Part shown: positions 57,561 through 57,963 of the stretch, in pieces
Position numbering within the stretch: the first letter of the stretch is position 1
Layout: the number at the start of each line of letters is the position of its first letter
From: a virus
IMG/VR virus record: IMGVR_UViG_3300012985_000006
Location: 78,490-142,489 of that record
Direction: 5' to 3' (one strand)
DNA: 64,000 bases
Made by a program: the position numbers and the translations under genes
Notes under the pieces: model-generated
What the model was told of the DNA's origin: nothing
Database searches by the model: none
Seen by the model: only the letters and a program-made list of their open reading frames with translations

Positions 57561-57685
57561 CGCCGCTTCCAGGAGTCGAACCTGGCGAAGCTTGTAAGCT
57601 CTACTTTGGAACCCCTTTCAGGGTCGAGATAGAGAGCGGGGGATTGGTTTCCTTAACAGGGAAATTGGACCCACGTCCAAGCGGC
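57561..57685 (-). tRNA. Oversized tRNA-like gene, Asn-type anticodon (GTT)
   Basis: 125 nt. Acceptor GCCGCTT (57685-57679) pairs with AAGCGGC; discriminator G and an encoded CCA follow. The T arm is CCAGG-TTCGACT-CCTGG. The anticodon stem TTTCC/GGAAA closes CTGTTAA, anticodon GTT. The D region is a short hairpin GGAC-GTGG-GTCC without a normal D loop. Between the anticodon and T arms lies a long insert that includes a 50-nt block shared with the tRNA-like gene at 57835: CCGCTCT...CTCGnCCC...GGG...ACAAGC. Confidence 0.65.
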
Positions 57686-57692
57686 ATATTCA

Positions 57693-57830
57693 GTTACAAT
57701 CGAGTGCGTCAACCAGTTTTGCTGTTTTTCTTGATAGGAAAATGTCCTGCCACTAGACGATATTCCCCGAAGGGAGTAACGGGAATCGAACCCGTGCATT
57801 GCGTGTATGGTTGATGCTGGTGACTGTAAC
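57693..57830 (-). ncRNA. yrlA: YrlA-type Y RNA
   Basis: 138 nt. The ends form a stem: GTTACAGTC/GATTGTAAC (9 bp), an internal loop, GC/GC, then TCAACCA/TGGTTGA (7 bp), resembling the Ro-binding stem. Inside is a tRNA mimic in permuted order. First comes a T arm (57779-57795, ACGGG-TTCGATT-CCCGT). Next is an acceptor-like helix TACTCCC/GGGAATA closed by a short TTCG loop. A D arm follows (GTC-TAGTGGCAG-GAC, 57744-57758), then a hairpin TTTTC-CTATCAA-GAAAA. Bacterial YrlA RNAs have this architecture, and a Ro (Rsr) gene lies 2.7 kb away. It sits 4 nt below one tRNA-like gene and 7 nt above the other. Confidence 0.75.
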
Positions 57831-57834
57831 CTAG

Positions 57835-57963
57835 TGGGGGATCTGGGAATCGAACCCAGGCTTGTATGACCTGCCTAGTGTCCCATTGCTGGGACGAGGA
57901 GCAGAGCGGTGTTTTTTCCAAAACCAAAATTTGGATGAGGGAACCTACCCTCTGTGATCCCCC
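57835..57963 (-). tRNA. Oversized tRNA-like gene, Ser-type anticodon (GGA?)
   Basis: 129 nt. Acceptor GGGGGAT (57963-57957) pairs with ATCCCCC, discriminator A. The D arm is GAGGG-TAGGTT-CCCTC. A loop with TTGGAAA (anticodon GGA, one mismatch in the stem) follows. Then comes the block CCGCTCT, CTCGTCCC, a GTCCCA/TGGGAC hairpin and TACAAGC that is shared with the gene at 57561. The T arm is CTGGG-TTCGATT-CCCAG. Serine tRNAs have long variable arms, but this is far longer. CCA not encoded. Confidence 0.55.

Follow-up and report, generated by a model that had tools for sequence, protein, structure and literature searches.

Gene content and arrangement of the array

The window analyzed here, a stretch of 64,000 nucleotides, is the terminal part of a 142,489-bp virus record. 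Four RNA genes abut on its minus strand in the order G2, Y element, G1 and tRNA-Leu-like RNA, separated by spacers of 2-7 nt. All three of the arm connectivities described below (G, Y and iii) are present in this single row. The features considered in the following sections are:

57835-57963, minus strand: G2, unpermuted tRNA-like RNA (G class), 129 nt; R1 covariance model E 5e-19
57860-57909, minus strand: 50-nt arm block within G2
57693-57830, minus strand: Y element, circularly permuted tRNA-like RNA between G2 and G1
57561-57685, minus strand: G1, unpermuted tRNA-like RNA (G class), 125 nt; R1 covariance model E 3e-18
57590-57639, minus strand: 50-nt arm block within G1
57426-57558, minus strand: class iii RNA, a tRNA-Leu(UAA)-like body (57458-57530) with flanks; leader and trailer form an arm
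58021-58647, minus strand: ThiF/E1-like protein gene, the immediate upstream protein gene of the array
59095-59550, minus strand: JAB-domain protein of the ThiF/Ro60-like gene cluster, just below the Pfam cut-off
60526-62382, minus strand: Ro60/TROVE-fold protein with a C-terminal vWA domain, 617 aa (618 codons), proposed arm-binding partner
42102-43352 (G000:C1:120591-121841), minus strand: RtcB RNA ligase gene of the window phage

The two oversized tRNA-like genes that had been put forward in the original prediction are real. Their acceptors, T arms and anticodon arms are supported by MFE folds. Both genes combine a fully paired 7-bp acceptor and C74 with a T arm of 5 bp that contains TTCGANT, an anticodon arm and an unusual D-like arm. 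The anticodon loop of G1, CUGUUAA (GUU, Asn-like), is fully canonical, its N73 is G and its CCA is encoded. G2 has the loop UUUUGGU (UUG) and A at N73, and it is followed by ACUA, a full CCA not being encoded. The class iii RNA has the loop CCUAAAA, which places a C at position 33. Single-strand MFE folding returned the expected structures, with z-scores of -4.4 (G2), -3.7 (Y element), -2.7 (G1) and -4.6 (class iii). A Y-RNA-like gene sits between G1 and G2, as had been proposed; it is a circularly permuted tRNA element. None of G1, G2 and the Y element was detected by ARAGORN or by Rfam at gathering scores, and both G1 and G2 fell below the gathering score of the tRNA model RF00005. Since these programs miss the G genes and most Y genes, the tRNA counts of large phages are incomplete.

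The homology of the 50-nt inserts, and the edges assigned to them, were likewise correct. The two blocks align without gaps and are identical at 33 of 50 positions. A chance origin had been considered unlikely, and no other 50-mer of the window, on either strand, has at least 28 matches to the G2 block, while 50,000 shuffles gave at most 26 (a smaller shuffle run produced one value of 32, which was not seen again). The G2 block consists of an inner helix of 8 pairs with one mismatch, CUCG, an outer GNRA hairpin and UACAAGC. The 6-bp GNRA hairpin shows compensatory changes between the two blocks (GACCCU-GAAA-GGGGUU vs GUCCCA-GCAA-UGGGAC).

The ThiF gene also adjoins G-class RNAs in three other phage loci, L005, L006 and L007. 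In the window, the genes for ThiF (E1-like), JAB and a 319-aa protein (58021-60472, minus strand) are grouped with the Ro60-like gene; this order recurs in L006, where a ribosomal L7/L12 C-terminal domain protein is added. Other elements were observed on the minus strand of the window. A phage tmRNA (47980-48444) measures 465 nt against a 374-position Rfam model and thus holds extra sequence. A minihelix at about 53998-54050 has a T arm, GCGGG-TTCGAGT-CCTGC, which a GTGGGT/CACCCAC acceptor directly surrounds, leaving a gap of 9 nt; its D and anticodon arms are absent. A second T arm (GTGGGTTCGATCCCCGC) lies directly after a tRNA-Thr (54700-54740), and an orphan T arm (63272; 63200-63300) has an acceptor-like 3' strand and received no ARAGORN tRNA call. 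On the opposite, plus strand, the translations at 50386-52767 indicate response-regulator-like and histidine-kinase-like ORFs. Reduced tRNA-like elements were also seen in other loci: one beside a Y element at L006 15290-15395, with acceptor, D arm and T arm, the anticodon arm being absent, and an acceptor/T-arm element in the array at L008 16550-16632, in which a 15-nt linker replaces the D and anticodon arms.

A conserved arm in three topologies

When viral contigs were scanned for a DNA pattern, a relative of G2 came up in a second phage, L005, again next to the ThiF gene. The inner helix of this relative, GCUCUGUC/GACAGUGC, still pairs although the letters differ. Ro60-like homologues were then used to reach 45 loci in large phages, and a descriptor search returned 87 candidate G genes including duplicate records, about 75 after curation. 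A similar block is present in ~75 tRNA-like genes on roughly 30 large-phage contigs. Alignment of 43 arms (A4) supported an 8-bp inner helix and a 6-bp outer hairpin, with strong covariation. The cells of this alignment were paired in 84.5% of cases vs 62.0 +/- 1.2 in shuffles, and in <=53% when slid; the covariation score was 0.623 vs 0.228 +/- 0.016, and 16 of the 17 pairs had changes on both sides. Chance similarity and recent local duplication were ruled out as sources of the insert by these covarying relatives. The R1 arm covariance model, whose training set includes the window G1 and G2 and excludes L005, recovered the L005 arm at E 2e-10 although this arm is cut off and untrained. The invariance of CUC within A4 reflects selection, because the rows had been picked to contain it; with a descriptor lacking that requirement, 38 of 47 G arms had CUC ahead of the outer helix. 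An extra short hairpin (AGC-GAAA-GCU) stands ahead of the arm in some G RNAs.

The common arm reads inner helix, CUC+G, outer helix and then UACANGC, and it occurs in three topologies. In topology G it sits in the variable region, and the tRNA-like RNA that carries it has normal tRNA ends. In topology Y it is built by the two ends of the RNA, the tRNA part being circularly permuted as in bacterial Y RNAs. In topology iii, leader and trailer around a tRNA body make the arm. The variable regions of G1 and G2 thus carry the two-helix arm that the Y element and the class iii RNA of the same array build from their own ends, which the original prediction had missed. The ends of the Y element form GTTACAGTC ACCA GCATCAAC CATACACGC ... 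GTTGACGC ACTC GATTGTAAC, and its order is outer strand, ACCA, inner strand, AUACACGC, T arm, acceptor, UUCG, acceptor, D arm, anticodon arm, inner strand, ACUC and outer strand. The class iii arm of the window is AGGGTACCC ACCCT GGAAAGCA U ACACGC ... TGCTTTCC GCCTC GGGTGCCCT. When two-helix stems were sought with no sequence constraint, CUC directly preceded the outer helix in 17 of the 20 strong ones among Y candidates vs 0 of 49 for shuffled flanks. Among tRNA bodies with an upstream ACANG, the class iii test set, CUC was present in 30 of 47 strong leader-trailer stems vs 1 of 16 shuffles, and it was near constant among the best-scoring stems. These results indicate that a single module serves as the insert of G RNAs, the basal stem of Y RNAs and the leader-trailer of class iii RNAs. 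The acceptor stems of class iii RNAs are often just 2-5 bp.

The original prediction had left two explanations for the insert, a conserved arm of a new tRNA-like RNA class and an intron removed by a nuclease and sealed by RtcB. The first is upheld by a covariance model that finds dozens of genes and by the covariation of the helices; the insert is a conserved two-helix arm. The second would make the 50-nt block a variable-region intron: a splicing-type nuclease would cut it out and the phage RtcB would seal the ends, leaving ordinary tRNA-Asn and tRNA-Gln. The window phage does encode RtcB, the block edges are sharp and N73 of G1 fits Asn. However, removal of the arm leaves about 6-40 nt, mostly 14-28, between the anticodon and T stems instead of 4-5, and the D arms and many anticodon loops remain non-canonical after excision. 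Inspection of the folds revealed no bulge-helix-bulge, and the same arm is formed from the ends of Y and class iii RNAs. In addition, RtcB was present in 5 of 12 phage records, that of the window phage among them, and not found in the other 7, some of which may be fragments. An RtcB-sealed intron is thus disfavored, to the point of being highly improbable as an account of the block, while individual genes could still differ.

The acceptor loops of the Y elements retain tRNA features, with C74 in 12 of 18 and NCCA in 6 of 18. Such remnants would be expected had the permuted form arisen where two tandem tRNA-like genes meet, which may be its history. NCCA in these loops would also fit a permuted tRNA gene of the type known from red algae and archaea. 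In that case, the ends of the Y element would be ligated in the arm and its acceptor loop cut, so that Y and G genes yield the same kind of mature tRNA. RtcB in some records and the normal anticodon arms of some Y elements agree with this pathway. Against it, many Y acceptors, that of the window included, are closed by tight tetraloops (UUCG, UCCG, CGUA) without CCA, no splice motif was seen in the Y elements, and RtcB was not found in most records. We therefore regard maturation of this kind as very unlikely.

tRNA traits of the G RNAs and their proposed Ro60-like partner

The G RNAs keep part of what makes a tRNA recognizable. C74 is present in 73 of 75 G genes, and the anticodons include Asn, Gln, Met, Gly, Val and Arg. 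In 24 of 47 genes N73 fits the amino acid of the anticodon, vs 15.7 expected by permutation among genes (p 0.0026, kinship ignored). The anticodon loop is altered in many of them. U33 is nearly universal in decoding tRNAs, yet it was absent in 25 of 55 seven-nt G loops vs 45 of 650 normal-size genes of the same loci (p 4e-13, kinship ignored). When position 33 was read as U, 22 of these 25 loops were identical to tRNA loops already known from these loci (control mean 2.4, maximum 9). Twelve further G-class genes have 8-nt anticodon loops; L045:16724-16858 and L034:15304-15444 are examples of genes with such a loop or with the short extra hairpin. Most G RNA D arms do not show the usual A14 and U8 patterns. 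Since the G RNAs keep the acceptor stem, C74, the T and D loops and the anticodon while altering the anticodon loop, they are quite likely recognized as tRNAs without being normal decoders. U33 is kept in the other 30 of the 55 seven-nt loops, those of G1 and G2 included, and the G1 loop is canonical, so that for these RNAs the argument against decoding comes solely from the unusual D arms.

A different possibility is that the G RNAs serve in translation as working tRNAs whose variable arm is oversized, and that Ro60 only guards or stores them. The acceptor, C74, the T loop and the significant fit between N73 and anticodon are what would be expected of such tRNAs, as is the canonical loop of G1; CCA transferase genes were found in 6 of 12 phage records, which may be incomplete. 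The loss of U33 in 25 of 55 loops, the 8-nt loops of 12 others and the D arms without the usual A14 and U8 patterns make a role in translation unlikely.

The candidate partner of the arm is the 617-aa protein. By sequence it has a vWA domain; Pfam gave no TROVE match, only vWA families at E up to 1, and sequence searches for TROVE also returned vWA alone. An AF2 model built from 38 phage homologues (pLDDT 82) had as its best Foldseek matches TROVE 9kop, Ro-RNA 1yvp and the Thermus phage Ro60 9l5y. The TROVE/Ro60 chains matched at E 3e-8 to 1e-6 over 518-568 columns, in keeping with a helical-repeat ring plus vWA. Among the matches listed by VIA-align for the model there was vWA only, which is compatible with TROVE. 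The whole-length TM-scores to Ro60 were low (0.2) and the domain packing is uncertain, so the claim is limited to the family level, at which the modeled protein has a Ro60/TROVE fold.

As the loci had been found through the protein, any association with the arm could be circular, and an RNA-first scan was therefore carried out. Viral contigs were selected by the anchor and T arm alone, scored with the arm model and then searched for the protein. A Ro60-like protein was encoded in 5 of 7 strong-arm records found by arm patterns vs 1 of 16 weak-hit records (Fisher p 0.003, kinship ignored), and in all 3 new strong-arm records with E < 1e-13. Isolate genomes of Corallococcus encode a 36-39% identical protein and, a short way upstream, a Y-class element bearing the same ACUC arm; a search of one Corallococcus genome with the arm model gave no full match and no G-class gene. 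Several Ro60-like loci had no arm within 10 kb. No Ro60-like gene was found in L005 (155 kb), the locus with the best G2 relative, and this record may be a fragment. Gene proximity and co-occurrence suggest that the phage Ro60-like ring protein probably binds the common arm. The arm could instead be a general processing or stability signal of tRNA arrays with no part in Ro60 binding, as its occurrence in every array member regardless of topology and the arm-bearing record with no visible Ro60-like gene might indicate. That reading is rather unlikely given the association of the Ro60-like gene with phages found via RNA, the binding of Ro60 by the equivalent basal stem of YrlA (PMC8394870) and the joint presence of arm and Ro60-like gene in Corallococcus, where there is no array.

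Proposed function and comparison with known systems

Judged from their sequences, G1 and G2 are probably non-decoding tRNA mimics held by Ro60, which may be called "unpermuted Y RNAs". The four abutting RNAs would be transcribed as one precursor, from which tRNA-type processing would excise the G RNAs, thereby separating the Y and class iii units. The Ro60-like ring would then hold each unit by its arm, through the inner helix, the CUC/ACCA internal loop and the outer helix, and the tRNA-like end would point outward as the working part. Two roles can be envisaged for that end. Bacterial YrlA binds Rsr by its stem and recruits PNPase by its tRNA-like end (PMC8394870). YrlA has also been suggested to inhibit an anticodon nuclease competitively (PMC7790460), and for phage tRNAs whose anticodon loops are altered, evasion of host nucleases is predicted (PMC10264068). 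On the strength of these three precedents, we tentatively favor, as the most likely role, a decoy or sponge that is held by Ro60 and draws off anticodon nucleases or other tRNA-targeting factors. By analogy with YrlA and PNPase, the RNA may also be a tether, through which Ro60 would reach a nuclease or processing enzyme that binds tRNA.

A broader reading, speculative and doubtful when its two parts are taken jointly, would join function and origin. The arrays would be Ro60-presented tRNA dummies, acylatable or bindable by nucleases and non-decoding by virtue of a spoiled U33 or loop, which absorb host tRNA-targeting defenses. Bacterial Y RNAs would descend from RNAs of this type, circularly permuted where two tandem genes meet, with the coexisting G, Y and iii forms as the record of that event. 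The origin of Y RNAs and their resemblance to tRNA are open questions, and three wirings found side by side make both directly testable.

Phage Ro60/Y RNA pairs have been noted before (PMC7824862, PMC12282133), and tRNA mimicry by Y RNAs is already known, YrlA itself being a circular permutation of tRNA (PMC11472068). A literature search, which was incomplete, found no report of unpermuted, leader-trailer or multi-topology Y RNAs; a prior mention is possible, and the unpermuted and leader-trailer forms are considered new provisionally.

Several known systems resemble parts of the array. The logic proposed here, an arm on the Ro60 ring and a tRNA-like end that recruits a partner, is that of the Ro60-Y RNA-PNPase RNP (RYPER). 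The phage system differs in that a single phage has several distinct tRNA-like ends. The permuted tRNA genes known from algae and archaea also place the 3' half before the 5' half, and NCCA is found in the joining loop of several Y elements. Unlike those genes, the Y elements have no bulge-helix-bulge, their ends lie inside a conserved arm, and permuted and unpermuted forms coexist in one phage array. Type II tRNAs (Leu, Ser, Tyr, Sec) share the position of the extra arm, between the anticodon and T arms. The G-class arm, in contrast, is about 60 nt long, with two covarying helices, an internal loop and constant sequence, and it is found on Asn, Gln, Met, Gly, Val and Arg anticodons. In the nuclease-evading phage tRNAs (PMC10264068), loop changes also accompany an intact anticodon, whereas the G RNAs change mainly U33 and bear a Ro60-type arm and an unusual D arm. 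The loss of U33 with anticodon and discriminator kept would fit tRNAs built for recognition and not for use, a possible defense-evasion device.

The closest likeness is to YrlA (RF02553; PDB 6CU1), in which a tRNA-like domain and a basal two-helix stem also adjoin a Ro60-family gene. The window Y element shares with it the order T arm, closed acceptor hairpin and D arm, as well as ends paired in the basal stem. It scored 16.4 bits with the Rfam YrlA model, below the 69-bit gathering cut-off, and no phage record examined was above that cut-off. The constant CUC+G/UACANGC signature is a feature of the phage arm group that sets it apart from YrlA. G1 and G2 differ further in their tRNA order, open acceptor, arm closed by a GNRA hairpin and retained anticodon arm. 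Because their order is that of a tRNA and their ends lie in the acceptor, they can be said to work like a Y RNA and not to be members of that class as now defined. The family of G, Y and iii RNAs links ordinary tRNAs to bacterial Y RNAs.
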